Shown: positions 8,046 through 27,538 of the stretch, piece after piece
Layout: each line of letters begins with the position of its first letter
Numbering within the stretch: the stretch's first letter is position 1
Assembly: GCF_036057275.1 (NCBI RefSeq)
Contig: NZ_CP107945.1
Location: forward strand, 5,890,001-5,954,000
Source: Streptomyces sp. NBC_00390
Lineage (GTDB): Bacteria; Actinomycetota; Actinomycetes; Streptomycetales; Streptomycetaceae
Direction: 5' to 3'
DNA length: 64,000 nucleotides
Program-made: the position numbers and the translations under genes
The notes under the pieces: generated by a model
What the model was told of the DNA's origin: nothing
Databases searched by the model: none
The model's input: only the letters and a program-made list of their open reading frames with translations

Positions 8046-8090
8046 AACTTACAAAGCAGATGTCGGCGGTTCGAAACCGTCCGCGCCCAC
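8046..8090 (+). tRNA. tRNA-Val(UAC) 3' half, probable att site
   Basis: The sequence carries an anticodon loop CTTACAA (8048-8054), a T-arm GGCGG-TTCGAAA-CCGTC and an acceptor strand GCGCCCA, which is the 3' half of a tRNA-Val. The 5' half is absent, so this is not a working tRNA but a duplicated 3' end, as left by integrases that recombine in tRNA genes. A second copy lies at 19,848-19,892. Confidence 0.65.
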
Positions 8091-8107
8091 TCGCGTGAAG
8101 CACGACG

Positions 8108-8148
8108 AAGGCCCAGGTCACCGGTAGTAAGCCGGAAGCCTGGGCCTT
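8108..8148 (+). terminator. Hairpin after tRNA-Val fragment
   Basis: AAGGCCCAGG pairs with CCTGGGCCTT around a loop containing CCGGTAGTAAGCCGG, itself able to pair. It follows the tRNA fragment and is probably the tRNA terminator carried with the att copy. The same hairpin at the second copy is split by an IS (19,908-19,925 and 22,707-22,730). Confidence 0.7.
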
Positions 8149-8192
8149 GTTCGTTCCTCGGCTGCGGGGGTGGGGGAGAGGTGTCGTGCCAG

Positions 8193-8756
8193 TTACGTGC
8201 CAGATGCCTCGTCGGACTCCGCCGGCCGGACCCTCTTGATCTGCTCGTCGACGTGAGCGGCGATGGCGTGGTCACGACCGTTGACCAGGTGCTGACGGAT
8301 CAGAGCCGCCCGCACCGACGAGTGCCCCATGCGCTGCATCAGCTCGCGCGTAGTCGCGTCGCCCGTAGCTGCCAGCCTGTTCCCCGTGTGCCGCAGGTCG
8401 TGAAAGCGCACGTCCCCGAGGCCGGTCTCGTCGAGGGCTCGCAGCCAGAGGCGACGGAAGTTGTTCCGGCGCAGCTGCCCGCCTCGTGCCCCGGTGAACA
8501 CCAGCCCCGTACGGCTCGGCTCTGCGTATGTGTCGAGGTGCGCAGCCAGGTCCGCCGACAGGGACGCCGGGAACGCGACGGTACGGACACCGGCCGCGCT
8601 CTTCGGAGCCTTGACCAAAATGCCGTCCGTCCTGGTCTCGGCGAGTGCGCGCCGCACGGCAACGATGCGCCGTTCGATGTCGATGTCATGTCGCTGGAGA
8701 GCGACCAGTTCGCCGAAGCGGAGGCCGGTGAAGGCGGCCAGGAGGATGAGCACGGT
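8193..8756 (-). pseudogene. Tyrosine integrase remnant, catalytic Tyr replaced
   Basis: C-terminal catalytic half of a phage/pSAM2-type tyrosine recombinase. Visible landmarks are TGLRFGELVAL (catalytic Arg I), FHDLRHTG (His-x-x-Arg) and MGHSSVRAALIRQH. In relatives the last segment reads IYQH with the nucleophilic tyrosine; here the codon is CGT, giving Arg. The N-terminal arm-binding and core-binding domains are missing because sequence from a different transposase begins at about 8757. Both losses predict an inactive protein. It lies about 45 bases from the hairpin and 100 bases from the tRNA-Val fragment, the expected position for the integrase of an element inserted in that tRNA. Confidence 0.8.
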
Positions 8757-14821: not shown

Positions 14822-15008
14822 AGGTCAGCCCGTGCCACAGGTGTGCCAGAAGCAGCGGGGAATCACGGGGAATGGGGGTGCCTGACGGCCGCTCAGACCG
14901 TTACCAAGCCAAGTAGCGCTCTCGCAGGTCAGTAAGCAAGTCGCCCCACCACGCTCCTAAAGCGGTGGTAGCGGGCGTGTTGTACCGCACCGGAGTTCAG
15001 CAACCACG
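14822..15008. repeat. Composite dispersed repeat, order C-D-B (copy 2)
   Basis: Block C at 14,831-14,876 (GTGCCAGAAGCAGCGGGGAA, TCACGGGG), block D at 14,937-14,972 (TCGCCCCACCACGCTCCTAA) and block B at 14,976-15,008 (GTTGTACCGCACCGG, CAGCAACCAC). Compare 2956-3152 and 17,510-17,826. The C block repeats the GTGCCA word, typical of sequence next to tRNA integration sites in Streptomyces. Confidence 0.6.
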
Positions 15009-15060
15009 GCTGTGTCAATGGGGTCGCGGAGGTCCGGCAGCAAGAGAGCAGGATGCACCC

Positions 15061-15348
15061 GTGACGCCATTTACCAATGTCCGCAGAGACCGTGCCGACG
15101 GGCCGTACGCCTGCCCGTGCTGCCGCTACGTGACGTTGAGCGAACGAGGCTGGTACGAAATCTGCCCCGTGTGCTTCTGGGAGGACGACGGCCAGGATGA
15201 TCACGACGCGAACGAGGTACGAGGCGGACCTAACCACGGACTGAGCCTCACCGAGGCCCGGCAGAACTTCAAGGACACCGGGGCCAGCGACACGCGACGC
15301 ATCCCCATGGTCCGGCCTCCCCTGCCTCACGAGCACCCAGTCCTCTGA
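15061..15348 (+). CDS. CPCC family cysteine-rich protein
   Basis: A 95-residue protein from GTG 15,061. It shows the family signature YACPCCRYVTLSERGWYEIC, then PVCFWEDDGQDD, NEVRGGPNHGLSLTEARQNF and a terminal RPPLP. The two CxxC-type pairs suggest a zinc ribbon. CPCC proteins are frequent in island and polymorphic-toxin neighbourhoods, but their role is not established. The TGA stop at 15,346-15,348 is itself the start of a TGACATC motif, so gene and motif form one unit. The frame runs upstream through the composite repeat, which is not taken as coding. Confidence 0.75.
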   Translation: MTPFTNVRRDRADGPYACPCCRYVTLSERGWYEICPVCFWEDDGQDDHDANEVRGGPNHGLSLTEARQNFKDTGASDTRRIPMVRPPLPHEHPVL

Positions 15349-15378
15349 CATCACCGGCTGACATCAACGAGGACAGAC
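15344..15378 (+). repeat. TGACATC tandem motif, copy 4
   Basis: TGACATC at 15,346 and 15,359, period 13, second extended to TGACATCAACGAGG. The first TGA is the stop codon of the CPCC gene. Confidence 0.7.
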
Positions 15379-15593
15379 ACCAGCAGCTCCAACCGACCTA
15401 CTTCGAAAGTTGGAACGCCTGGCCAGCCCCGATCCAGCGGCGGCGGATCGAACTCCTGAAGCGGGTGTCACTTAGTGCGTTGTGGCAAAGGGAGTCCCTG
15501 TTCGATGAGCAGGGGCTTCGTCGTGTGCGGGGCATGATCGCGGAGGGGTAGGGGCAGGCAGCGGACGGCTTGTTGTGGATCGAGGAGGGTGCG

Positions 15594-16160
15594 ATGCCGT
15601 CGGTGCTGGGGTTGATGGAACAGCGTGAGGCGCGGGCGAGGCAGGATCTGGAGTCCTGGACGGAGGTCCTGGAGCAGGCTCAGGCGGAGGTGGATGCCGC
15701 GCGGGAGCGGGTCGAGCGGGCCCGGGTGGGGCGTGAGGAGCTCGTGTCGGTGCTGGCCGGGGAGGGCGCGGTGAATACGCCGGTTTCCGTGCTGTCCGGT
15801 GGTGGGATGGCTGCTGCCGTGGGATCGGGCGGCCCCGGCGCGGGGCATGGCGAGCGGCCGCCGGTGTGGCGGTCGGGCATGGGCGAGGAGGTGCTCAGCG
15901 GCCTGTACCGGGAGGTGTTCGCCGCGGTGGTGGCTGCTTCGGGGCCGGTGAACGGGGTGGAGCTGACGCGGGCGGTGGGCCGGGAGGCGGAGATCAAGAA
16001 CGAGGTGGAGAGGATCCGGCACCGTGCCTACGTGCTGGAGAAGCGGGGCTGGCTGGTGCGGGCGAAGGACGGACGGTTCATGCCCGTGCCCGCAGCAGTC
16101 GGGCGGGGCGTTTCTCCGGCCAGCGCGGAGCGTCTGCGGCCAGGCGCCGGGACAGCCTGA
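15594..16160 (+). CDS. IS accessory protein: coiled coil plus winged helix (copy 2)
   Basis: A 188-residue protein with a GGAGG site six bases before ATG 15,594. MPSVLGLMEQREARARQDLE opens a coiled coil to about residue 60; a Gly/Ala linker follows; LYREVFAAVVAASGPVNGVE with LTRAVG and HRAYVLEKRGWLVR form a winged-helix-like end. It is homologous to the protein at 13,456-13,983 and lies inside the terminal repeats of a complete IS, which proves it travels with the element. It overlaps the transposase 3' end by 83 bases tail to tail, so the two transcripts are antisense to one another. Role unknown; regulation or DNA bridging during transposition is possible. Confidence 0.8.
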   Translation: MPSVLGLMEQREARARQDLESWTEVLEQAQAEVDAARERVERARVGREELVSVLAGEGAVNTPVSVLSGGGMAAAVGSGGPGAGHGERPPVWRSGMGEEVLSGLYREVFAAVVAASGPVNGVELTRAVGREAEIKNEVERIRHRAYVLEKRGWLVRAKDGRFMPVPAAVGRGVSPASAERLRPGAGTA

Positions 16161-17079
16161 TCACGGCGGCCCACCACACCATCTGGGTGTGGTGGTCGGG
16201 GCGGCGTTCGTGGTCGCGGTTGAGGCGGCGTGAGCGGGCCAGCCAGCTCAGCGTGCGCTCCACGACCCACCTGCGGGCCAGGACGACGAATCCGCGTTGT
16301 CCGTCGGAGCGGCGCACGACCTCGGTCCGGACTCCGTGGCGGGCGAACGCCTTGGCCAGCGCCGGACCCTGGTAGGCACTGTCGACCCACACCAGTTTCA
16401 GCAGCCGGCCGGGCTGGTCCATGAACGTCTCCAGTAGTGCGGGGGCGGCCTTGGAGTCGTGCACATCGGCCGTGGTCACGGTGACCTCCAGGAGCAGGCC
16501 CTCGGTGTCGGTCAGGATGTGACGCTTGCGGCCGTCACGTGACTTGCCGCCGTCGTATCCGCGGCTGTCCTCGCCGACGGTCTCGGAGGCGTCCACCGAC
16601 TGACTGTCGATGATTCCCGCACTGGGCTCGGCGTTGCGGCCCGAGCGTTCCCTCGCCGAACGTCGCAGGCGTTCGTGCAGTTCACGCACGTAGCCGTAGG
16701 ACCGCCAGCGGCGGAAGAAGTCGTAGACCGCCCGCCAGTACGGGAAGTCGACCGGCATGGCCGTCCACTTCACGCCGTTGTCGACCAGGTAGCGCACCGC
16801 GTCGAGTATCTCGCGGTGGCAGTACGCCTCCGGACGCCCGCCCCGCTTCAGCAGCCAGGCCGGAACCGGCATCGCCGAGCGGACCTCGGCCCACTCCGCA
16901 TCCGTCATGTCACTGGGATAGCAGCCTGCCCGCAGCCCCGGAGCGATCGAACCGAACCGGTGCACGTAGCAGTCACACGCAGGGGTGACCGCGGTGGACG
17001 CAGGCACAGTGGTACTGCTCAACTGATCGGGCAACGGGCTTCCTTGGTCGTGCTGGTGTCGTAACCGCGTCACTACCAA
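16078..17079 (-). CDS. IS5-family DDE transposase (copy 2)
   Basis: A transposase of up to 333 residues. YPSDMTDAEWAEVRSAMPVP is the N-terminal DNA-binding region; catalytic residues are Asp in AGIIDSQSVD, Asp in LVWVDSAYQG and Glu in WVVERTLSWL. It has the same order of motifs as the 12.5-13.5 kb transposase but is clearly diverged. An N-terminal CDCYVHRFG segment is shared. Starts at 17,079 (GTG) or the TTG/ATG codons downstream are possible; an inverted repeat (AACGGGCCCCTTGGT with CCAAGGAAGCCCGTT) lies in the leader and partly overlaps the longest frame. Intact and within an element with perfect borders, so possibly active. Confidence 0.85.
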   Translation of the reverse strand: MVVTRLRHQHDQGSPLPDQLSSTTVPASTAVTPACDCYVHRFGSIAPGLRAGCYPSDMTDAEWAEVRSAMPVPAWLLKRGGRPEAYCHREILDAVRYLVDNGVKWTAMPVDFPYWRAVYDFFRRWRSYGYVRELHERLRRSARERSGRNAEPSAGIIDSQSVDASETVGEDSRGYDGGKSRDGRKRHILTDTEGLLLEVTVTTADVHDSKAAPALLETFMDQPGRLLKLVWVDSAYQGPALAKAFARHGVRTEVVRRSDGQRGFVVLARRWVVERTLSWLARSRRLNRDHERRPDHHTQMVWWAAVIRLSRRLAADAPRWPEKRPARLLRARA

Positions 17080-17204
17080 GGGGCCCGTTCTTTCATGCCC
17101 GCGACCGCACCCGTACCTCTGTCCAGATGATCACCCGCGCCGCACGCCTCGAACGAAATCCGGTTAGCCACAACGCACTTAGTCCAGTCGTGTGACTCGT
17201 TGGG

Positions 17205-17486
17205 CTACGCGAGCCGTCTGAGCAGCTGCTCGGTGGGCCAGCACAGGAGTCGTAGGACTGAGTTGGTCGCCACGAAGTATGCGGGTCTGACCCAGCCTTC
17301 CTCCTTGCACACCAAGGCTCGGGTGTCGTCTCGGTAGGCATGGCGGAGGTACTGCCGGCGGAGCGGCCCTCCGACGAGCAACAGCACCGGCGATGTAGCC
17401 AACGCCAGCGCGGTCACGCCGAGGCGAATGACGAGGGATTGGGCACTGTTCTCAACACGCATGGGAGAAGTGTGCGGCACTGCCAT
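17205..17486 (-). CDS. Small hypothetical membrane protein
   Basis: About 93 residues if started at ATG 17,486 (alternative ATG 17,462). SLVIRLGVTALALATSPVLL is one membrane span, followed by a basic tail HAYRDDTRALVCKEEGWVRP and LLCWPTEQLLRRL. The longer frame upstream crosses repeat blocks D and B and is not believed. No family known. It lies just beyond the IS at 15,475-17,178. Confidence 0.5.
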   Translation of the reverse strand: MAVPHTSPMRVENSAQSLVIRLGVTALALATSPVLLLVGGPLRRQYLRHAYRDDTRALVCKEEGWVRPAYFVATNSVLRLLCWPTEQLLRRLA

Positions 17487-17509
17487 AGCTCGCAGCGAGA
17501 GGACCAGTC

Positions 17510-17826
17510 GGCTCCACCGCACTCCTAAGGCGCGGGCGTTGGGCGTGAAGTACAGCCGCGGAATACAGCAACCGCGCCGACACCGCAGCAGACCTTCAGG
17601 GCACCTGAGGAGCTGGCCGGGCAGCCCACCAGATCTCAATGACCGCCCTGCCGATGGTTGGTGTCGTGAGGGTCGGCCCGTGCCACAACTGCGCCAGATC
17701 GGGCGGGGAATCACGGGGGACTCCGGTGGCCGGAAGGGGCAACAGCCAGGTTCCGCGGAAGTCGTCTTGCCGCAGGTCACGGCCCAGCTCGCCCCACCTC
17801 ACTCCTAGATCGGGGGTAGCAGGTTC
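17510..17826. repeat. Composite dispersed repeat, order D-B-C-D (copy 3)
   Basis: Partial D at 17,510-17,537 (CTCCACCGCACTCCTAAG), B at 17,542-17,578 (AAGTACAGCCGCGGAATACA, GCAACC), C at 17,678-17,733 (GGCGGGGAATCACGGGGGAC) and D at 17,785-17,822 (CTCGCCCCACCTCACTCCTA). Two D blocks flank B and C, the order expected if two units were joined by recombination within the repeat. Confidence 0.6.
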
Positions 17827-17911
17827 GGATTTTCCTCCCAGGCCACAGCTTTGCCATGTCTATCGCCGTGCCACTCAGGCGCCATGGTTCGGGCGGCCTT
17901 CTCGCACTCAG

Positions 17912-18472
17912 TCAGAGCGGTGCCATGGCCAGCTCGCCGATCACCCGCAAGCCGACCTGGGCGGCCAGCCACGGCGCACGTTCGGCCTCGTACTGTTTGA
18001 CGTGGACGAACACGGTGTGAACGTCAGCGGGCTCATACAGGTACAGGTCATGGGCATGTGTCGCCAGCGTGACGTACGCGCCCCGGGTTCCGCCCCGTTC
18101 GAGATTGACTTCTGGCGCTGCCGGCCATCCGTTGAAGTCCCAGCGGACCATCGCTGAAGCGGTTCCCGCGGCGGCCAGGAACACTTCCGCCATGTGGATC
18201 GGCCGACACCAGTCGGACAGGAACACGGGGAGGCAGTCAGCGGCGGTTCCGCCCTCGCGTGATGAACCTGACCTGCCGGGTCCGTACGCCCACCAGTCAG
18301 CCTCCGGTACAACTTCGGCCAGTCTCTTCAACTCCTGGGGCGTCCGGGCAACAGCCTCCAAGTCCACCTCTACGCTGCTGGTCTCAGCCAGCTCCAGGAG
18401 CAGCCGGACCACTCGGAGCGCCTCAGTCAGGTCCCCAGTCCTCAGGATCGGCTGCGCGTACGAATTCGACAT
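17912..18472 (-). CDS. Hypothetical protein
   Basis: A 186-residue soluble protein from ATG 18,472. GDLTEALRVVRLLLELAETS, then AVARTPQELKRLAEVVPEAD and an aromatic-rich second half (MVRWDFNGWPAAPEVNLERG, THAHDLYLYEPADVHTVFVH) look like a real alpha/beta protein. I do not recognise the family. It lies between two islands of dispersed repeats and reads opposite to the cassette genes. Confidence 0.65.
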   Translation of the reverse strand: MSNSYAQPILRTGDLTEALRVVRLLLELAETSSVEVDLEAVARTPQELKRLAEVVPEADWWAYGPGRSGSSREGGTAADCLPVFLSDWCRPIHMAEVFLAAAGTASAMVRWDFNGWPAAPEVNLERGGTRGAYVTLATHAHDLYLYEPADVHTVFVHVKQYEAERAPWLAAQVGLRVIGELAMAPL

Positions 18473-18589
18473 GCGCGCAGTGTGCCAGTGCGTACCGCTC
18501 CCCGCCTCTCGATTGCTTGGAGGAGCAACGCAGAGCGACGGCGTGACACACCCAGCCCGAGAGCGGCCGCTCCGCTCCGTATGTCATTG

Positions 18590-18640
18590 GCTCCGTGCCC
18601 GGTGCGTGCCCGACGAGGCGGGGAACCACGGTCAATGGCG
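18590..18640 (+). repeat. Lone block C with GTGCC words
   Basis: GTGCCCGGTGCGTGCCCGAC followed by GGCGGGGAACCACGG, a variant of composite repeat block C. A tRNA-Gly fragment follows 75 bases later, supporting a link between block C and tRNA attachment sites. Confidence 0.5.
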
Positions 18641-18714
18641 GGTGCTGGAGCACGCAGCCAGGCTTGGACCCAGCGCCCGTTGAGCCTGATCAGGAGCCAT
18701 ATCGGTTGCAGAAG

Positions 18715-18761
18715 GTGATTCCCAAGCTCGGAGCGCGGGTTCGATTCCCGTCACCGGCTCT
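18715..18761 (+). tRNA. tRNA-Gly(CCC) 3' fragment, probable att remnant
   Basis: Anticodon loop TTCCCAA (18,719-18,725), a T-arm GCGGG-TTCGATT-CCCGT and an acceptor-like CACCGGCTCT resemble the 3' half of tRNA-Gly(CCC). The 5' half does not precede it, and the acceptor end departs from the expected CACCCGC, so it is a decayed attachment-site copy rather than a working tRNA. Confidence 0.5.
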
Positions 18762-18825
18762 AACGGCTAAGGCCTAAGTCAGCGACATGACCCCCAATCC
18801 AGGCCTTTGTATTGCCCAGACCGAT

Positions 18826-19428
18826 TTAGGCACCACGCACCGCTTCCGCGCTACTTGGGCCCTCTTCCGGCCGGCCAGAGCCGTTCTTCCGCGCGGCCCG
18901 GACTGAGTGCTGGTCGATCGGTGCGGCGGCGAGCAACTCCCGCATGCGTTCCGCGCCCTGCGGCGTGCTCAAGCCGCGCTTGGGCAGTATCAGCACTCCG
19001 GCGCCCCATACGTCTGGGGTGAGCAGCACGAAGACCCGGCGCCCCTCGATGCAGCGCCCGTAGAACTCCCAACCTGTGTGGTTCGTATGGCGCTCGGACA
19101 CAGTGCCGATCCCTGATCGGTCGACCGTGACGCGATGTTCGCCCAGGTGCCTGGCGTATCCGAGCAAGCCCAGAGCCATCAGCCAGCGGAACGCGATCAT
19201 GATGACGATGACGGTCACAATGAACCGCAGTACCCCCAGGGCAGGGGAGTCGATGCCCTTGGCCGCAACGTTGATCGCGATCACCAGGCCGAGGAAGATG
19301 CCCACGACGCACAGGACGCGACAACCCCACCGGCCAACCGGACTGTGCCGCATCTGAAGTTTCAACCCGTCGGATATCTCCCGCAGTGTCACCGTGTACG
19401 TGAACTGCACGGATACGTCGGCGGTCAT
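18826..19428 (-). CDS. YcxB-like membrane protein
   Basis: A 200-residue protein with a GGGAGG site before ATG 19,428. The N-terminus is a beta strand pair (VSVQFTYTVTLREISDGLKL), followed by two membrane helices (WGCRVLCVVGIFLGLVIAIN and VLRFIVTVIVIMIAFRWLMA). The C-terminal part HRVTVDRSGIGTVSERHTNH, then WEFYGRCIEGRRVFVLLTPD and GVLILPKRGL matches the YcxB-like C-terminal domain. Function of the family is unknown. Intact and well translated, probably cargo of the island. Confidence 0.75.
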   Translation of the reverse strand: MTADVSVQFTYTVTLREISDGLKLQMRHSPVGRWGCRVLCVVGIFLGLVIAINVAAKGIDSPALGVLRFIVTVIVIMIAFRWLMALGLLGYARHLGEHRVTVDRSGIGTVSERHTNHTGWEFYGRCIEGRRVFVLLTPDVWGAGVLILPKRGLSTPQGAERMRELLAAAPIDQHSVRAARKNGSGRPEEGPSSAEAVRGA

Positions 19429-19847
19429 ACGTCCTCCCCAGGGCTGATGGACAAGGCATCGTACTGGTAGGCGATCAACGGCTACTCATCCCATCGCAGC
19501 CAGATTGCACATCTCGGTGAGACCTGCGGCCCAGACACTTCGGGAGCCACTGGCCCGACCGCCGCTCGGCCATGCTCGATGGCGTCATGGCTGCGTAGTG
19601 AGTCACCCGGTGGGCCGGCACGCGGATCACGAAGCTCCCAAGGGCAGCGCAGCAGCCCGAATCTTCGTGGCCTGTTCGTGGACCGACGACGAGGGCCGGG
19701 CGGATGTCGGCCTGCGTGCCGGATTCGTGCCAGATCGAGCAGTCAACCACGTCACTCGGAGCCTGTAGCGGCTCGAGTGCCTGCTGAGAGAGTCGGCATC
19801 GCGACCGCAGTGACGACCAGCAACGACGTATCGCGTGCGGCGCCAGG
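19429..19847. other. Non-coding stretch before the second tRNA-Val fragment
   Basis: No convincing gene. Frames on both strands overlap one another. The right part (from about 19,780) corresponds in position to sequence that precedes the tRNA-Val fragment at 8046 but is diverged from it. Confidence 0.4.
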
Positions 19848-19892
19848 CTTACAAAGCACATGCCGGTGGTTCGAAACCGTCCGCGCCCACCA
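19848..19892 (+). tRNA. tRNA-Val(UAC) 3' half, second att-like copy
   Basis: CTTACAA anticodon loop (19,848-19,854), T-arm ending in TTCGAAACCGTCC and acceptor GCGCCCACCA with encoded CCA. It matches 8046-8090 at most positions and is followed by the same AGCACGAC and AAGGCCCAGGTCACCG sequence. The two copies bracket 11.8 kb and could be left and right attachment sites. Confidence 0.65.
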
Positions 19893-19945
19893 GTAGGAAG
19901 CACGACAAGGCCCAGGTCACCGTTAGGGCCTGTTCTGAGTTGGGA

Positions 19946-20527
19946 TCACGGGAGGGCTGGCAGGCTGCGTAACCAGAGGATGGATCCGCGCAGGTGGAGC
20001 CCGGCGGCGTAGCTCTCGGGTGTCTTGTCGTAGCGGGTGGCCAGCCCCCGCCACTCCTTGAACTTGTTGATGGCTCGCTCGACAGTGTTGCGATCTTTGT
20101 AGAGCGTGGCGTCGTGGCTGACCGGGCGGCCGCCGGAGTGTCCCTTCTTCTTGCGGTTGGCGGCCTGGTCGGCCTTCTCCGGGATCACCGCCTTTATGTT
20201 GCGTCTGCGCAGGTGGGCACGGTTGGCGCGGGAGGAGTAAGCCTTGTCGCCGGCCACTGCGTCCGGCCTGGTCCTGGGACGGCCGGCCCGGCCGCGGACC
20301 TTGATCTTCTTGAGGACGGGGATGAAACGCGGGCTGTCCGCGGCCTGACCGGGGGTGAGGATGATGGACAGCGGACGGCAGCGCCGCTCAACGGCGAGGT
20401 GGACCTTGCTGGTTAGCCCGCCCCGGGAGCGGCCCAGTTCGGCGGCCCGCAGCCGGGCCCTGCGGCGTCGGCGCACGGCCCGGCGCTGGTCCCGCTCGGG
20501 ATCCTCCATGTCCGCGGACCCGTCTCC
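19946..20527 (-). CDS. IS427-type transposase, second frame (catalytic half)
   Basis: The catalytic half of the transposase: LGRSRGGLTSKVHLAVERRC, second Asp in AVAGDKAYSSRA and Glu in DRNTVERAINKFKEWRGL. A free-standing frame begins at ATG 20,509, but the normal product would be a fusion with the first frame by a -1 slip at CAAAAC: reading AAA then AAC instead of ACG carries the ribosome from the first frame past its TAG stop into this one. First and second halves together give about 330 residues, the usual length for the group. Confidence 0.8.
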   Translation of the reverse strand, partial: GDGSADMEDPERDQRRAVRRRRRARLRAAELGRSRGGLTSKVHLAVERRCRPLSIILTPGQAADSPRFIPVLKKIKVRGRAGRPRTRPDAVAGDKAYSSRANRAHLRRRNIKAVIPEKADQAANRKKKGHSGGRPVSHDATLYKDRNTVERAINKFKEWRGLATRYDKTPESYAAGLHLRGSILWLRSLPALP

Positions 20528-20943
20528 TACGGGGTCGTTTTGCCCCTTTGCTGCAGCCCCTTTTCCTCCGCCACGGCCTTCTCCAGATCCTCAAGGAGTT
20601 CCGGGTCGACCACCATGCCCGCCGCATGGTGATGCGCGCGGACAACCGTCGAGTCCACACTGGCCAGGCTGAGATCGACATCGTCGCGGGCCGCTGCCTC
20701 GGCGATCATCGCGGCCATGAGGGTCTGGAAGACCGCGTCACGCGCCCACATCCGGAACCGGTCGTAGATCGTCGACCAGGAGCCGTAGCTGTCCGGCACA
20801 TCCCGCCAGGGGCTGCCGGTACGGAACCGCCACATCACCGCGTTGAAATAGCTACGCAGGTCAGGGATCGGTCCGAACGCCCCCAGCGGCAGGTGCGGCT
20901 CGATCAACTCCCACTCGGCATCGGTCAGGTCACCACGAGTCAC
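20525..20943 (-). CDS. IS427-type transposase, first frame (DNA-binding half)
   Basis: About 138 residues: LTDAEWELIEPHLPLGAFGP is the DUF4096 helix-turn-helix segment and SLASVDSTVVRAHHHAAG supplies the first catalytic Asp. It ends at a TAG shortly after a CAAAAC slip site, consistent with programmed -1 frameshifting into the next frame. Its first 100 bases and the upstream leader (20,848-20,986) are duplicated at 22,537-22,673 on the far side of the FG-GAP cassette. Confidence 0.8.
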
Positions 20944-20986
20944 GCGACCGGTCTACCGCAGCCAGCACCCTCCTGGAGCGGGAATG
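20848..20986. repeat. 138-base direct repeat, left copy
   Basis: Covers the 5' part and leader of the transposase. The right copy is 22,537-22,673, about 137 bases with two single-base deletions and a few substitutions. The left copy lacks the terminal inverted repeat that the right copy retains, so the cassette between them was inserted into the IS and duplicated this segment. Confidence 0.75.
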
Positions 20987-21070
20987 TGCGGGGAACTGCG
21001 CGAGCGGCCACGACGCGGGCGCACTCGTACGAACAAGGCGAACCCCAGGCAGCTGGGCGGGAGGCCGGGC

Positions 21071-22417
21071 CTACTGGAGCATGCCCCAGATGAGTTCGGT
21101 GTCGGCGTCGGTCACACCGGTCGTGGTGACGCCGGACGACGTACCGGGGAAGCGCAGCGAGCCATTGATGGCGCCGACGTAGAGGTCGGCCTTGCCGTCG
21201 CGGTTGGTGTCGCGGAGGCGGACCGGCTCGCCGAAGCAGTCGTTCCATGCGACGTCGCCGGGGACGCCGGCGGTGTTGCGGGCGAGCCACTGGGAGTTGG
21301 TGCCGGTGATCCCGCTCGCGCTGCCGCGCAGAACGTGGACGCCGCCCTCGGTCGTCTCCTGGCTGATTTTCTCTCCGTAGACGCCGATCGCGAGGTCCTT
21401 GTAGCCGTCGCCGTTGATGTCGGCGGCCGAGACGGAGGAGCCGAACAGGTCGCCGGACTCTGGGGTGCCGGCGACGTTGGTGGTGGCCTGCGTGATACGG
21501 ACGGCGGTAGCGGGGCCGGTGGAGGAGCCGTGCCAGATGGACACCCGGCCCTGGTAGTTGTTGTACATCTGGCTGCCCGCCGCGAGGTCCCCGTAGCCGT
21601 CCTTGTTGAAGTCGGCGATCACCGCCTCGCTGGGGTCGCCGTAGTTCGTGACGAGGCGCAGGGTCTTGCCCGCGCTGAGCGGGGAGCCGCCCTTGATGAA
21701 CCACGCGTCCGTGCCGAAGTTGTCGGGCTCGTCGGTGATTCCGATGATCACCAGATCGGTCTTGGAGTCCCCGTTCATGTTGCCCGAGACCAGGGACGTG
21801 GGCGCGAATCTCGTCGTCTTGTCGTGGCTGGTGACCGAGCCTGCCACACCGGTGCGCGTGATGCTGCGGTAGACGTAGGCCTTGCTCCCGCTGATCGCGG
21901 CCAGGTCCTTCTTGCCGTCCCCGTTGAAATCCCCGGCGGCGAGGTCGCGGCCGAAGCGGGCGTTCGACACCTTGGCGCCGGCGTTGGGGATCGCGGTGCC
22001 ACCCGAGAGGCCGGTCGCGCTTCCCCACAGGATGACGACGCCGCCCTCGTCCGTGCGTCCGTCGACGTCCTCGCGCGACACCGACACGGCGAGGTCCCCG
22101 TATCCGTCGGCGTTGAAGTCGGCGGGCACCCGGACGTCGCCGAACTGGTCCTCCGTCTCGTCGGCGCCGGGGACACCGGGGCTGTCCTGGGTGATCAACT
22201 GGGTCTGGGTGCCGGGTCCGGAGGCGGTACCGAAGGTGATCCGGACGCCGCCGCCCTTGCTGTACTGCTCGTAGGTGTAGCTGGCGTAGTCGCGGTAGCC
22301 GTCGCCGTTGAAGTCGTCCGCGTACCTGGCCGCCGCCGCGCTGGCGGGAGGTGCCGTGAGGACGGGGGCGAGGGACGCCACGAGGAGTGCCGCGCAGGCT
22401 GCGGGGCGAATGCGCAT
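21071..22417 (-). CDS. Secreted FG-GAP/VCBS repeat protein (IS cargo)
   Basis: A 448-residue exported protein with a CAGGAG site before ATG 22,417 and a signal peptide (MRIRPAACAALLVASLAPVL, cleavage after ASA). It contains seven calcium-binding integrin-like repeats: DFNGDGYRDYA, DFNADGYGDLAV, DFNGDGKKDLAA, NMNGDSKTDLVI, DFNKDGYGDLAA, DINGDGYKDLAI and DTNRDGKADLYV, spaced about 55-65 residues, enough for a seven-bladed beta-propeller. Such Streptomyces proteins are extracellular; ligands are unknown. The gene lies entirely inside an IS427-type element between duplicated pieces of that IS, so it is passenger DNA of unknown benefit. Confidence 0.85.
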   Translation of the reverse strand: MRIRPAACAALLVASLAPVLTAPPASAAAARYADDFNGDGYRDYASYTYEQYSKGGGVRITFGTASGPGTQTQLITQDSPGVPGADETEDQFGDVRVPADFNADGYGDLAVSVSREDVDGRTDEGGVVILWGSATGLSGGTAIPNAGAKVSNARFGRDLAAGDFNGDGKKDLAAISGSKAYVYRSITRTGVAGSVTSHDKTTRFAPTSLVSGNMNGDSKTDLVIIGITDEPDNFGTDAWFIKGGSPLSAGKTLRLVTNYGDPSEAVIADFNKDGYGDLAAGSQMYNNYQGRVSIWHGSSTGPATAVRITQATTNVAGTPESGDLFGSSVSAADINGDGYKDLAIGVYGEKISQETTEGGVHVLRGSASGITGTNSQWLARNTAGVPGDVAWNDCFGEPVRLRDTNRDGKADLYVGAINGSLRFPGTSSGVTTTGVTDADTELIWGMLQ

Positions 22418-22536
22418 GAAGTGTCTCCTGATGATTCTGTGCGACCGCTCCTGTGCCGATTGATTTCTCAGGACCACAGAGACAGGAGCGGTTGATGATC
22501 AGGAGACAGTCGGACGGGGGAAAAGGTTGCAGGCGG

Positions 22537-22673
22537 ATAGCTACGCAGGTCAGGGATCGGTCCGAACGCCCCAGCGGCAGGTGCGGCTCGATCAACTCCA
22601 CTCGGCATCGGTCAGATCACCAGGAGTCACGCGACCGGTCTACCGCAGCCAGCACCCTCCTGGAGCGGGAATG
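22537..22673. repeat. 138-base direct repeat, right copy
   Basis: Right partner of 20,848-20,986, here joined to the terminal inverted repeat of the IS. Single-base deletions would break the transposase frame, so this copy is not coding. Confidence 0.75.
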
Positions 22674-22799
22674 ACCGATCCCGTGATCTCAACTCAGAAC
22701 ACTCCCTAGTAAGCCGGAAGCCTGGGCCTTGTTCGTTCCTCGGGACTGCTGCACGGTTATTCCCAAACTCGGGGCAGGTGCACGCCATACGATCAGTGG

Positions 22800-23117
22800 A
22801 TGTCTACAGAAGAACCCGAGGCCGTCTGGGCCCTGGAGGGGTACAGCAAGACGGGCGAGCTGTTGCGCACCGAGCACCCCATCAGCCGCGAGCAGGTCAT
22901 ACAGCTTCGCGAAGTAATCAAACCGGACGCTGACGACCCCTGGATGCTCCTGTGCTACCCCGTACCGGTCGAGGTGTGGCCAGCAGTAGAGGCGATCCTT
23001 CGATGCGGGCCGCCCGACCCCACGCTCGACTATCTGACGGGGGCCAGCGCCGCGACCGGTACCGGCGCTGGTGCAGAAAACGACCCGACCAGAGAGCGGT
23101 CTGACATCCACGGCTGA
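22800..23117 (+). CDS. Small acidic hypothetical protein
   Basis: A 105-residue protein from ATG 22,800: VWALEGYSKTGELLRTEHPI, then REQVIQLREVIKPDADDPWM. It resembles small Streptomyces proteins with an ALEGY-start domain and no known function. The stop TGA (23,115-23,117) lies inside the second half of a TGACATC motif, so the last residues SDIHG are encoded by the motif itself. It follows the split terminator of the second tRNA-Val copy. Confidence 0.65.
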   Translation: MSTEEPEAVWALEGYSKTGELLRTEHPISREQVIQLREVIKPDADDPWMLLCYPVPVEVWPAVEAILRCGPPDPTLDYLTGASAATGTGAGAENDPTRERSDIHG

Positions 23118-23130
23118 CATCAACGGCGCT
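23100..23130 (+). repeat. TGACATC tandem motif, copy 5
   Basis: TGACATC at 23,102 and 23,115, period 13, second extended to TGACATCAACGGCG. It contains the stop codon of the upstream gene and marks the point where the cation-efflux gene on the other strand is cut. Confidence 0.7.
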
Positions 23131-23278
23131 GGAACACACCAGCGGTGAGCGTGCCGGCGGTGAGGGCGACAACCGCTTCGATGACGTTGTAGGCGATCGT
23201 CGCGGCGACCAGCAGGCGTATGCGCTTGGCGAGGGCGTCGCGGCGGGCCGGGGACGGACCGAGGGACATCGCAGTCAT
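23120..23278 (-). pseudogene. Cation diffusion facilitator, 5' fragment
   Basis: About 50 residues (MSLGPSPARRDALAKRIRLL, then AATIAYNVIEAVVALTAGTL) match the N-terminus and first membrane span of CDF-type metal efflux proteins. Reading then runs into the TGACATC motif and stops, so the remaining five spans are lost. Start ATG 23,278 or 23,269. It lies two bases after the ArsR-like fragment, the usual operon order for a metal sensor and its exporter. Confidence 0.65.
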
Positions 23279-23279
23279 C

Positions 23280-23470
23280 TCAGCAGCAGTACTTCGTCTC
23301 CGCGTCCGGGCAGGTCCTGTCGGCCTCGACCGCCAGCACGGCGGTGCGCAGGTCGTCGAGGGCGTGGCCGAGACGTTCGTCGGCCAGCTCGTAGCGGGTG
23401 CGGCGTCCGTCGGGCACGGCGACGACGAGGCCGCAGTCACGCAGGCATGCCAGGTGATAGCACGTCTTGC
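23280..23470 (-). pseudogene. ArsR/CmtR-like metal sensor, 3' fragment
   Basis: The C-terminal 60 or so residues of an ArsR-family repressor: HLACLRDCGLVVAVPDGRRT, then YELADERLGHALDDLRTAVL and a terminal CPDAETKYCC. The paired C-terminal cysteines and the CLRDC segment are metal ligands in CmtR-type cadmium/lead sensors. The N-terminal half is replaced by unrelated sequence upstream of about 23,470. Together with the truncated exporter it is the wreck of a metal-resistance operon. Confidence 0.65.
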
Positions 23471-23506
23471 GCGTCTCGGAGCAACAGCAGGGCGCCGCAA
23501 CCCTGC

Positions 23507-23914
23507 TCAGCGGCGACCGTCGGGAGGGCCTTCTCGTTTCACATGGGCGATCACGGCGGAAACGGCGGCGGTCACAACGAGGCTCCCCACCATGACCATC
23601 CCCACCCCGACCATGAAGAGGCCGCTGGAGTCGTCCGACCAGTCGTAATAGGCGGCAACCGTCAGGCCGATCGGGATGCCGAGCACAGCGCCTGCGAGGT
23701 GGCGCCGGGATGCCGCCCAGTACAGCGGCCCCAGCAGAGTCAGCACCAGTCCGATCACTTGCCACGCCTCGTACGGGCCGGTCGTCGTGCCGTCAGGTTG
23801 CACGTCACGATGCTGGTCCCAGCCCAGCCAGGCAGCCCAGACCGCCGGCGTCACCACAGCCAGCCCGAGGATCGTCGACAGCTGGAGAACGAGTTTCATC
23901 AGTCGTTGTTGCAT
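23507..23914 (-). CDS. Small multi-span membrane protein
   Basis: A 135-residue protein from ATG 23,914 with four hydrophobic segments: KLVLQLSTILGLAVVTPAVW, YEAWQVIGLVLTLLGPLYWA, HLAGAVLGIPIGLTVAAYYD and GLFMVGVGMVMVGSLVVTAA. The basic C-terminus would face the cytoplasm. No functional family is recognised. It overlaps nothing and may be an ordinary chromosomal gene at the edge of the island. Confidence 0.65.
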   Translation of the reverse strand: MQQRLMKLVLQLSTILGLAVVTPAVWAAWLGWDQHRDVQPDGTTTGPYEAWQVIGLVLTLLGPLYWAASRRHLAGAVLGIPIGLTVAAYYDWSDDSSGLFMVGVGMVMVGSLVVTAAVSAVIAHVKREGPPDGRR

Positions 23915-24398
23915 GGCCCCACCGTTCCGGCTCAGCCCATGCCCCGACCAGAGCGCAAGTACTCAGCTCCGCCCAAGTACCTCCGCTCTGATGTTGGTCG
24001 GCTTCGGAAGCTGCGGTCCCGACGCTGTTCAGAGCGCCGCCGGACGGCAACGTACGGGTTGGGCCGAATGAACGCCGAGCAGCGTCCGTGCGACCACGTT
24101 CCGCTTGTTGGCCGGCGGTCCAACCCCGGGCCTCTCCGGGCCGTCCGATGTCGCTCGGCGGTGGCCAAGGACGACCGATGACGGCCGGTCAGGAACCACT
24201 CCGTGGCGAGGTCGGCCGAAGCGATCGTGGGTCCGGTCAGAAGCCCGCCGCATCTTCAGTGGCGGCGGTGCCGGAATGCGCAGCTCACACGGGTGGTACC
24301 GCCAACCAGGCGGGGCTTTCGGCCGGTCCGGCACGGTGTCGGGCCCAGGGCGCGGTGTGCCCGCACACTGGTGGCCTCGGAAGCAGGAGGGACAGACC
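23915..24398. other. Intergenic, no gene recognised
   Basis: About 480 bases with overlapping Arg-rich frames only. The last 20 bases hold the AGGAGG ribosome site of the next gene. No repeat or RNA was identified. Confidence 0.4.
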
Positions 24399-24986
24399 GT
24401 GGACGACCTCAGCCCTCAAGGAGGCCGGAAACACCTCGACCCGGGCGGTCGCGCCGCCCCTGCTCAGCCGGGAGTCATCGGCATCGGGCTCGCCGCCGTG
24501 CTGACAGTCGCACTGGCACAGGGTTCCTGGCAGTGGTTCGCCACATACATCGGACTGACGCTTCTTGCGCTGATCTTCTGCTTCTATCGCCTGCCGGCGT
24601 GGACGCCTGGCCTCCGCTCTGCGTACGTCGCAAACCTGGCGGCGTATTCGCTCGTTGTGGGCCTGTGCGTCGCGATCACGCTGGCTCCGATGCTGCAGCG
24701 CTGGGCGTGGTTGTTTCCGATGCCGGGCACCCGCCGCGGGTGCCATGAGCTGGGCAGGTACGAGAGCGTACGTGTGGAGGAATCACTGGCGAACCTTGCC
24801 GGTCGCGAGCGTCCCGTCCTCGCTTACGCACAGGACATCCACCGCCGTACCGCCGTCGCCGACTGCCTGGCGGCCACTACGACCCTGTGGCTGCCGGTGT
24901 ATGCGCTCGGGGTGGCCGTACTGGTCGGCCTGGGCACGTGGTTCTTCGGCCGAGCTCGGGCGCAGAGGGACGCAGGGCGCACGTGA
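24399..24986 (+). CDS. Hypothetical membrane protein
   Basis: A 195-residue protein from GTG 24,399, eight bases after AGGAGG, which decides the start over the longer frame. Three or four membrane spans: VIGIGLAAVLTVALAQGSWQ, TYIGLTLLALIFCFYRLPAW, NLAAYSLVVGLCVAITLAPM and, near the end, TTTLWLPVYALGVAVLVGLG. A middle hydrophilic loop (GRYESVRVEESLANLAGRER) lies between spans three and four. No family known. Confidence 0.65.
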   Translation: MDDLSPQGGRKHLDPGGRAAPAQPGVIGIGLAAVLTVALAQGSWQWFATYIGLTLLALIFCFYRLPAWTPGLRSAYVANLAAYSLVVGLCVAITLAPMLQRWAWLFPMPGTRRGCHELGRYESVRVEESLANLAGRERPVLAYAQDIHRRTAVADCLAATTTLWLPVYALGVAVLVGLGTWFFGRARAQRDAGRT

Positions 24987-25309
24987 CGCGGACCGCGTAG
25001 CGCCGGCTCCGTCCTCACGTTCCACGAACAGCGTTGCCCAGGCTGCCACGCAGTGCTGCCGGCCCGGTACGGCAGCTGTCCGACCGGCGGCTGCTTTCCT
25101 GGTGAGGCGGTCCGTCAGACTGCCCGGGAATTCGCTTCCTCGATGCTCGGAAGCGCCGACAGAACGCCGCTGAGCTGCGTGAAGTCCTTGCACGTCGCCT
25201 CGCGGCACCCGCTCGCAGAGGCGGGATCGGGTCCGTGACCCTACGGTGGTCTGAGAGCGCCGTCGAGTGGGGGAGGCGGTCCGGAGGAGGCCGTGATCCG
25301 GAGGAGGCC
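24987..25309. other. Intergenic, no gene recognised
   Basis: About 320 bases without a convincing frame. It ends in repeated GAGG words (CCGGAGGAGGCCGTGATCCG, GAGGAGG) that provide the ribosome site of the following gene in duplicate. Confidence 0.4.
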
Positions 25310-25612
25310 ATGATGGAGGAGCATTTCGTCTGGATGACAACGCGCCGCATCAAGCCGGGAATGCTGGAGGACTTCGAGAGGGCTTGGCGGCCGGCCTCCC
25401 ACCCTGAGGGCATGCGCCGCGCCTACGCGTACTGGTCCGAGGACGGGCAGGAGATCATCGGGGTTTCGTTCTGGGAATCCAAGGAAGCGTGCGACGCCTG
25501 GAGAGCCTCGGAGGCAGAGGCGCGGCGGCGGGAAGCCATGGCTCCGTGCATCGTCGGGGAGCAGGAAGCGTTCTACCGTGGCCGCGAACTTGTCGTCCCG
25601 GCGCGTTCCTGA
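25310..25612 (+). CDS. Antibiotic biosynthesis monooxygenase-like protein
   Basis: A 100-residue protein with GAGGAGG just upstream; ATG 25,313 gives the better spacing, ATG 25,310 the longer form. FVWMTTRRIKPGMLEDFERA, then YAYWSEDGQEIIGVSFWESK and EACDAWRASEAEARRREAMA follow the strand-helix-strand-strand-helix plan of dimeric alpha/beta-barrel (ABM/EthD-like) proteins. No catalytic residue is evident. A second ABM-like protein is at 61,724-62,050. Confidence 0.6.
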   Translation: MMEEHFVWMTTRRIKPGMLEDFERAWRPASHPEGMRRAYAYWSEDGQEIIGVSFWESKEACDAWRASEAEARRREAMAPCIVGEQEAFYRGRELVVPARS

Positions 25613-25867
25613 ACGTGAATGCGTGGGGTCGGGCCGCTGAAGGATCCAGCTGAGACCGGATGAGGGCATGCCGACCAATTGGAAAGGCTCCTCTGGTCCG
25701 CGTAACGGATCTCGGTGACTGTGACGAGGGTTCGTGACCAGGGGCTCACGCATGATGGTCGATGCGCACTTGCCGGCAGTCCGATGAACTCCGTTTACTC
25801 GTAGCGCAGTTGTCGAGGTGCTTGGCACATGTTCGCCTGCACCCCATTGCCCCGGTGACGAGAGAGT

Positions 25868-26764
25868 TCATCGAGCGCCTGCCCCTTCGTTCGCCGGCCC
25901 GCTCCGCGCTTCGTCAGCGGCGTACGCCGTCGTGCCGAAGCGCGCCACACAGTGCCACACCCGCTTGAGCGCCTGCTCGTCGTAACGGCCGGAGCGGGCG
26001 GCGTCGCCGATGGTGCGAGCGTCAAGGCGGCCGTCCACCGCGATCTCCGTGCCCAGGTCGACGTACTCCTGGCCGCGGTACTCGGGGTGGAGTTGCAGCT
26101 CGGCGACATCGAGGCGGAAGCCGGGGTGCCACTCGACCGGGCAGGGAAGGTCACGGGCTGCGGCGTCCACGGCCGTGCCGCGGTAGCAGGGATCCAGGAC
26201 GAGCGCCTCCACGTCGCGGCAGAGGACGACCGGGCCGTGAATCTGCGCCTCGATGTAGTCGTCGAGGGCGTCCTGGCTGTCGGCCTCGGCGAGTTCGACG
26301 AGGGACATACGGGCCGCGACGCCGAAGTCCGACGGTTCCAGGAAGCTGTCCGGGTAACAGAAGGACGCTCGTCCCAGGGTTTCGGCGCTCAGGCGGAAGT
26401 GCGCGGAGCCGAAGCGAGGTGCTCCGCCGAACGGTCTGTGGCGGAAGTTCAGTGCCCCGTAGACGGGCCGGGCGTGGGCGGGCGCGTCGTCGTACGCGCC
26501 TCCGAAGATACGGCTCTCCCAGCGCCAGCGGTCACCTCCGGGGTGAGCGGTCAGCCCGCCGTTGCTCGTCCTGGTCACGAACTGGGAGAGATAGACGCCG
26601 TCCTCGTCGAGCGCATGCAGGATCGGCTTGTCCCGCACCGTCCGGTCCGGGTGGAAATTGAGCGTCACGCGAAGCGCCGGGTCCATCGGGGTGCCGGACG
26701 ACCGTGACGCGACATGGCGAAGGGCCTGTTCCTGGGGAGTTCTGCGGGATGCATCGGCGCTCAT
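25868..26764 (-). CDS. DUF3626 domain protein
   Basis: About 298 residues from ATG 26,764 (the frame opens earlier at 26,830). VTLNFHPDRTVRDKPILHAL, then YLSQFVTRTSNGGLTAHPGG and RPVYGALNFRHRPFGGAPRF, FGSAHFRLSAETLGRASFCY and CPVEWHPGFRLDVAELQLHP match DUF3626, a family of conserved His/Asp-containing proteins of unknown function seen in actinobacteria and fungi. His and Arg residues in the LNFHPDR and YGALNFR segments resemble an enzyme pocket, possibly related to ADP-ribosyl transfer folds, but this is speculative. It ends 37 bases after the convergent-free gap and is followed upstream by a broken kinase gene. Confidence 0.75.
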   Translation of the reverse strand: MSADASRRTPQEQALRHVASRSSGTPMDPALRVTLNFHPDRTVRDKPILHALDEDGVYLSQFVTRTSNGGLTAHPGGDRWRWESRIFGGAYDDAPAHARPVYGALNFRHRPFGGAPRFGSAHFRLSAETLGRASFCYPDSFLEPSDFGVAARMSLVELAEADSQDALDDYIEAQIHGPVVLCRDVEALVLDPCYRGTAVDAAARDLPCPVEWHPGFRLDVAELQLHPEYRGQEYVDLGTEIAVDGRLDARTIGDAARSGRYDEQALKRVWHCVARFGTTAYAADEARSGPANEGAGAR

Positions 26765-26826
26765 CGGTGCAGTGTCTCCCGGTGGGGTCGGCGCATGCAC
26801 CGGGATTGATGGCGTGACGCGTCGCG

Positions 26827-27538
26827 TCACCGCCTGATGCCCGCCTCCACCTCGTGCACCAGCGCCACGGCGTCGCCGAGAAGACGCACTTCGGACTCGG
26901 TCAGGTTCGGGTCGGCGGCTCGTCTCGTACGGGCTCGGGCGAGGTGGCCGGACCCGGCGTCTCCCAGGTGGACTTCGGGGTCTGCGTGCCGGAGCAGCGA
27001 GGTCAGGCCGATTCGGGCGCCCTCGGCCACCGGGACGGGAGCGATGGCGACCTCGGCGAGGATCAGGGCCGACATGGCCCAGTCGAGTCCCGGGCGTCCC
27101 TCATCGGCGGTGCTCCAGTCGATCACCACCGGGCCGTCCGGCATGAGCATCACGTTCTCCGGATGCAGATCGAGGTGGAGGAGACGGTTCCGCGGGGTCG
27201 GCCGAGAGGCGGGCAGGGATGGCGTGCAGCCGGCGCAGCAGATCGGCGAGCATCGCGCCCGCTGCTTCGGGGGTGATCGCGCCCTGTTCCAGTGCCTCGA
27301 CCATGGAAGGCCCGGTCAGGCGCTGCATCTCGAGGCGGGTACGGGCAACTGCCGTGGCCCCGTGAGCCGTTGGCCGCCGGAGGCGGGGAACCGGGTAGCC
27401 GTGGTCCGCGAGGTAGGACATGACGGCGGCCTCGGGAGCAGCGTCCCCGCCGTCCCGGTACTGGCGCAGGACCCATCGGTCGTCGATCGCGAACACGTCG
27501 GCTGTGCGGCCGGAGCCGAGCAATTCCCCCGTATGCAT
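26827..27538 (-). pseudogene. Aminoglycoside phosphotransferase-like gene with frameshift
   Basis: The minus strand from ATG 27,538 encodes the N-terminal lobe (MHTGELLGSGRTADVFAIDD, then VLRQYRDGG and MSYLADHGYPVPRL) of an APH/ChoK-type kinase. Near 27,185-27,200 the frame breaks: the C-terminal lobe continues in another frame as NRLLHLDLHPENVMLMPDGP and VVIDWSTADEGRPGLDWAMS, with the Brenner motif HLDLHPEN and the metal Asp in IDW. One single-base indel would restore about 237 residues. Either a pseudogene or a sequencing error in a C/G-rich run. All catalytic residues are present across the two frames. Substrate unknown. Confidence 0.75.

Follow-up and report, generated by a model that had tools for sequence, protein, structure and literature searches.

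Several arrangements are described in which an insertion sequence (IS) is associated with DNA other than its own. Transporter IS (tIS) are IS derivatives with passenger genes (PMC9330008). In a composite transposon, two IS copies surround a DNA segment, and in a transposable module (TMo), one IS copy mobilizes adjacent DNA (PMC3281130; PMC9330008). The definitions used here are those in excerpted sections of the two articles. In the table of PMC3281130, likewise as excerpted, entries of the IS427 group are 832–865 bp long and mostly show a 2-bp target duplication.

The locus studied here lies in a window of 64,000 nucleotides from Streptomyces sp. NBC_00390 (NZ_CP107945.1, positions 5,890,001 to 5,954,000), and coordinates refer to this window unless stated otherwise. 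According to the original prediction, terminal repeats and a TA duplication bound a 2.78-kb unit. Sequence reading and a repeat search bore this out: the unit spans 19926–22706 (2,781 bp), is bounded by inverted ends and TA, and is single-copy in its own genome. We read it, with a probability of roughly 0.7, as an asymmetric compound transposon of the transporter-IS kind, in which one IS5-family transposase would act on a full IS end and on the end of a sister stub. The unit is composed as follows.

19924–19925: left TA of the target duplication (repeat search; unoccupied paralogous site).
19926–19953, plus strand: outer left inverted end of the unit (repeat search).
19926–20986: left IS copy, whole except for its last 33 nt, with the right end absent (alignment to IS copies of other genomes).
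20848–20986: left copy of a direct repeat, consisting of transposase start and leader (repeat search, alignment).
20987–22536: captured cassette of 1,550 bp (the match of IS-free relatives ends at 20988 and 22536).
22537–22673: right copy of the direct repeat (repeat search, alignment).
22537–22706: 170-nt stub of a second IS copy, source of the right end (alignment).
22679–22706, minus strand: outer right inverted end of the unit (repeat search).
22707–22708: right TA of the target duplication (sequence, repeat search, unoccupied paralogous site).

The repeat search gave inverted arms at 19924–19953 and 22679–22708 that are 90% complementary over 30 nt. The stub contains the first transposase codons, the leader, and the opposite inverted end, and it lies in the same (direct) orientation as the left IS copy. 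The 138-base IS piece that had been expected at both cassette ends was found in the alignment as a repeat of 139 and 137 nt with 97.1% identity and two one-base gaps. As also expected, only the right copy keeps the terminal repeat. It continues into the IS end, and in the left copy both the repeat and the identity to the IS end at 20986.

Such a repeat could also be the scar of a Campbell-type event, in which a cassette circle with one 138-nt IS segment entered a complete IS by a single homologous crossover. The lengths agree with this, as the left IS and the last 33 nt of the right piece sum to exactly one IS of 1,094 bp and the repeat alone is in excess. The repeats themselves point the other way: the left copy is 97.1% identical to the right one and equally 97.1% identical to the IS elsewhere (G261, G225), and shared sites set most right copies apart from most left copies. 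This divergence is not decisive, since no coding constraint acts on the right copy. We consider the crossover unlikely; it would be compatible with later movement by the transposase. A recent duplication of one IS as the source of both repeats is not favoured either. In the compound transposon reading, the most likely origin would be two IS copies around a resident gene, followed by deletions of most of one copy and of the inner end of the other.

Compared with the described systems, the unit resembles a tIS, as characterized in the excerpt of PMC9330008, in that its transposase and an unrelated passenger gene lie within one pair of outer ends, both in the window and in a second copy in the MAG RH52_bin.044. 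It differs from a tIS in that the second end is the visible direct stub of another copy, with the 139/137-nt repeat, and in that the layout also occurs mirrored with other cargo. Judged from its sequence and from this excerpt, the window unit would work like a tIS. As in the composite transposons of the excerpted sections, two pieces of the same IS group flank the captured DNA and give the outer ends. A composite transposon has a complete IS on each side, whereas here the right piece is a 170-nt stub and the left piece lacks its last 33 nt. Furthermore, the transposase is on one piece only, and with the inner end lost, the parts should be unable to move separately. With the TMo of the same excerpts, the unit shares one IS with a transposase and a neighbouring segment. 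A TMo has no second IS copy, whereas here a stub beyond the cargo provides a genuine second inverted end. In the literature search, no title or abstract start was found that describes the window unit, and no paper was found for FG-GAP, Streptomyces, and transposon.

The transposase is encoded in two frames.

20527–20943, minus strand: transposase frame A, DUF4096 (PF13340; NF033580 just below the cut-off).
19946–20509, minus strand: transposase frame B, DDE domain (DDE_Tnp_1; PF01609, NF033580).

The NCBIfam IS5 model NF033580, with a cut-off of 110 bits, gave 107.6 bits for frame A and 136.5 bits for frame B, and the matches to PF13340 and PF01609 both exceed their own cut-offs. Both frames are open in the window. 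Frame B follows frame A in the −1 frame, the frames overlap, and the overlap site is similar in relatives. The transposase is predicted to be made by a −1 frameshift. Frameshifted two-frame transposases are common in the IS427 group. By its domain matches, the window transposase is assigned to the IS5 family, and the unit has the family trait of terminal inverted ends with a short target duplication. The 2-bp duplication of the IS427 group is represented by TA/TA in the window and at four sites of a second unit; on its left, the MAG copy shows CA in place of TA. The provisional label IS427-like fits this duplication, as given in the excerpted table of PMC3281130. Like the IS427 entries there, the window IS combines an IS5-family transposase, short inverted ends, and a 2-bp duplication. 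Unlike them (832–865 bp), the simple IS is inferred to be 1,094 bp long.

Cassette-free copies have a span close to this reconstructed length. A search for the IS without the FG-GAP cassette had been suggested, and same-group copies do exist in other genomes: the match covers positions 1–1089 of 1,094 at 90% in G278 and 1–1094 at 73% in G329. Inspection of the close group covered chosen genomes, less than a full census, and gave few simple complete copies (G278, and G092, which is complete and split by a nested IS). The remaining copies are compound, truncated, or internally deleted. The insert in G092 was considered as a third cargo and rejected, as its translation reads, by eye, like an IS3-type transposase.

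The insertion site can be compared with an unoccupied counterpart in the same window.

19848–19893, plus strand: 46-nt, att-like 3' piece of tRNA-Val(tac), 93% identical to the real tRNA-Val, no tRNA gene.
19905–19916, plus strand: left arm of a terminator-like hairpin split by the unit (sequence; unsplit paralogous copy).
22721–22732, plus strand: right arm of this hairpin (sequence; unsplit paralogous copy).
8048–8161, plus strand: unoccupied paralogous target with a tRNA-Val piece and an unbroken hairpin.

The region 8048–8161 shares 91% identity over 114 nt with the two flanks of the unit joined with one TA, and the tip of its unbroken hairpin is CACCGGTAGTAAG. From this match it follows that the insertion interrupted a hairpin of this kind and duplicated the TA. 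The insertion had been predicted to split the terminator hairpin of a tRNA-Val. The split hairpin is real, and an unsplit paralogous copy exists within 8048–8161; the tRNA-Val is a 3' fragment. A tRNA-Val gene at 19848–19893 was rejected since ARAGORN found no tRNA in the window and only the 46-nt 3' fragment is present. An Rfam scan of 15,000–27,000 gave nothing at gathering scores. The real tRNA-Val(tac) is located at about G000:C1:5879895 in the host genome, ~30 kb upstream of the piece at 19848–19893, and has its own terminator-like hairpin and an adjoining integrase gene. An integrase fragment (8193–8753, PF00589) comes after the piece at 8048. From their sequences, the tRNA-Val 3' pieces and the integrase gene or fragment (8048–8753 in the window and the G000:C1:5879895 region) are probably remnants of tandem integrative elements.

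The cassette carries the cargo gene and its leader.

21071–22417, minus strand: gene for an FG-GAP repeat protein of 448 aa, predicted to be secreted (PF01839, PF13517, translation).
22422–22508, minus strand: possible leader hairpin, the 3' arm of which contains the likely ribosome-binding site (inverted-repeat pair; folding).

The open reading frame is complete (PF01839, E 1.7e-38), and the protein start looks, by eye, like a signal peptide, which is consistent with the predicted secretion. The gene had been described as encoding a complete, secreted surface protein. Completeness and predicted secretion stand; surface attachment was not retained, as no anchor is visible by eye at the protein end. 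The gene is open in all nine records that carry the cassette, with a pooled pN/pS of 0.37. The outer stem of the leader hairpin is nearly invariant. Two-sided changes occur at 3 of the 30 predicted pairs in at least one of 11 sequences, and the covariation term over these sequences is slightly unfavourable (+0.47); with such weak covariation, the hairpin is suggestive only. The hairpin is also kept in the 82% and 77% relatives. A tblastn search of 50,697 phage records gave no match to the FG-GAP gene at E 1e-5. FG-GAP relatives on the host chromosome are clustered at G000:C1:3985681-3992064, with 66–74% identity over pieces of at least 85 bases.

The cassette was found at about 98% identity in 6 of 392 Streptomyces genomes (own genome counted) by a DNA search. 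A protein search of genome contigs gave 227 relatives, and 7 of the best 80 were at 97% or more. In 72,556 plasmid records, one contained the cassette. These searches overlap and together yield nine records, the window counted: the window, MAG RH52_bin.044, Streptomyces sp. NRRL S-455, S. viridochromogenes, S. cyaneochromogenes, S. djakartensis, a 232-kb linear plasmid of S. coeruleorubidus, S. resistomycificus, and S. tricolor. Gene and leader are 96.96–99.18% identical in pairwise DNA comparisons of the nine records, and the next FG-GAP relatives are those of S. inhibens (about 83%) and S. chryseus (about 77%). Flanks were compared pairwise with a minimum identity of 80%, over as much as ~10 kb per side and less at contig ends. 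Among the seven other genomes, one common piece of at least 200 nt was found (297 nt, 81%, S. resistomycificus and S. cyaneochromogenes), and for the window and the plasmid, compared with a limit of 100 nt, a single piece of 100 nt at 80%.

The same junctions were to be sought in other genomes, and they are present at unrelated loci. Both cassette/IS junctions occur in 4/9 records (window, MAG, S-455, S. viridochromogenes) and the right one alone in 3/9 (S. cyaneochromogenes, S. djakartensis, plasmid), so that the right junction is present in 7/9. As the junctions recur in other species, the structure is not due to chance. The 138-base repeat is present in independent assemblies. An assembly artefact or a chance repeat has a negligible probability and is already refuted, because four independent assemblies contain both junctions and seven contain the right one. 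Since seven of the nine records share the right capture junction, it would have been made once. In the gene tree, which is star-like, monophyly of the captured gene copies is unsupported: a clade of the seven has a bootstrap value of 22%.

The right inverted end or its tip survives in 5/9 records, and the tip reads ACACTCCC in all five surviving right ends. Among the other IS copies aligned, six of nine have the tip ACAGGCCC. The whole unit with both outer ends is present in two records, the window and the MAG, at different sites. These two copies, from two species, are 98.3% identical, lie at unrelated sites, and their likeness ends at the unit's ends. In the MAG copy, the reading frame is broken close to where frame A starts. 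Among the matches listed for its site (35 of 120 genomes matched), the right flank is conserved and none spans the joint of an empty site.

The FG-GAP gene of S. resistomycificus and S. tricolor (2/9) has neither junction and no piece of the window-type IS. The match to the window ends at the cassette junctions, and ~113 nt more upstream are common to both. As expected from their sequences, these IS-free copies would represent the form before capture. They lie at different loci, and as the window-type IS is absent from both, something else appears to have moved the gene as well. By eye, the copies in S. tricolor (L046) and S. resistomycificus (L044) adjoin apparent other transposases, and other elements may also move the gene in these species. 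The FG-GAP gene without the IS was not seen at the window locus in relatives.

These copies raise the question whether the IS is a passenger and the FG-GAP gene was spread by plasmids, chromosome-arm recombination, or other elements. Two of the nine copies without the IS, five without one or both outer ends, and one on a linear plasmid would fit. A passenger IS does not readily account for a complete TA-bounded unit with a known unoccupied site, for a likeness between window and MAG that ends at the unit's own ends, or for a second unit with the same behaviour at four sites. We regard it as improbable, somewhat more so than the crossover discussed above. The S. coeruleorubidus plasmid and plasmid NZ_CP108236.1, which carries the second unit, are both typed as non-mobilizable (PLSDB), though units may travel from one species to another on plasmids. 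We also considered a palindromic target in the S. coeruleorubidus plasmid and discarded it, as the cassette can account for part of the left arm.

A search for other cargo with the same IS, also suggested earlier, yielded this second unit with different genes at four sites.

Unit 2: L177 3236–6937, L178, L124 399–4099, and L264, each TA-bounded.

It consists of a left-end stub (~122 nt of the IS), cargo, and a complete IS, with the stub ~2.6 kb outside the IS and in the same orientation. Three long copies (G261, G225, plasmid NZ_CP108236.1) have 3,702 bp and are 97.5–99.7% identical, and their likeness starts and stops at their own inverted ends. A fourth copy in G375 keeps both outer ends but has lost the greater part of the transposase, and its flanks do not match those of the three long copies. 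TA is found on both sides at all four sites, one of them on a plasmid. Three proteins are encoded in the cargo: a TetR regulator, an SDR oxidoreductase, and one that matches deazaflavin-type nitroreductases weakly, below the cut-off. In the long copies, the inner left end is GGGCCAAGTTC compared with GG(G/A)CCTGTTC at the outer end. Because the stub is on the left, not the right, and the inner end is altered, not lost, unit 2 mirrors the window unit; we read it, too, as an asymmetric compound transposon. Given the opposite position of its stub, two IS copies reduced by deletions explain unit 2 more readily than a Campbell-type entry does.

Cargo 2 occurs at 95% or more in six further genomes, each inspected at one locus; G193 has a second copy. 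Short IS left-end pieces precede it in G369, G193, and G140 and look like one older junction (about IS position 195, 66 nt, cargo). No IS piece was seen beside cargo 2 at the one locus inspected in each of G091, G376, and G184. For the unit in G225, no empty site spanning the joint was among the matches listed (15 of 120 genomes matched). NZ_CP108307.1 matches NZ_CP108236.1 from the right end of the unit outward, with GCACTAACCGG at the edge, and its left side is unrelated; it gives partial support only for an insertion there.

The original prediction of a possible transporter unit that moves a gene with one transposase gains support from this recurrence at unrelated loci. The sequences show fixed unit ends, the TA duplication in the window, recurrence at unrelated loci, open frames, and shared junctions. 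From these, we infer movement of the whole unit by the transposase. The enzyme would pair the two outer ends and insert the 2,781-bp unit at Y-TA-R sites, with the TA doubled. Lacking the inner right end, the simple IS should be unable to leave alone, and the cargo would be locked in; more generally, a missing or altered inner end would keep IS and cargo together. The package would then have spread between species, possibly on plasmids, and would now be degenerating in the majority of the hosts observed. Recombination between the 139/137-nt repeats is predicted to drop the cargo and to leave a clean 1,094-bp IS.

We tentatively propose, giving it somewhat less than an even chance, that this IS group repeatedly builds self-stabilising carriers. 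A full or near-full IS and a direct sister stub of ~120–170 nt would bracket a gene, and the transposase would be forced to move the whole package once the inner end is lost or changed. At least two unrelated cargos in mirrored layouts fit this idea. The repeat would make the cargo removable, and carriers could thus be loaded and unloaded. The locus offers a natural case of a simple IS turning into a gene-carrying transposon, with the IS-free gene, the gene-free IS, and intact and decayed units in relatives. It also suggests a concrete route by which genes for secreted proteins and small metabolic genes could move between Streptomyces species. A testable rule for carriers would be that the inner end is lost or altered and the outer stub is kept, where annotation shows only an IS beside an ordinary gene.

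In S. cyaneochromogenes (G049), L258 659–1628 is a transposase-deleted IS derivative with ~0.55 kb of other DNA before the right end. This insert is possibly a third, small cargo.
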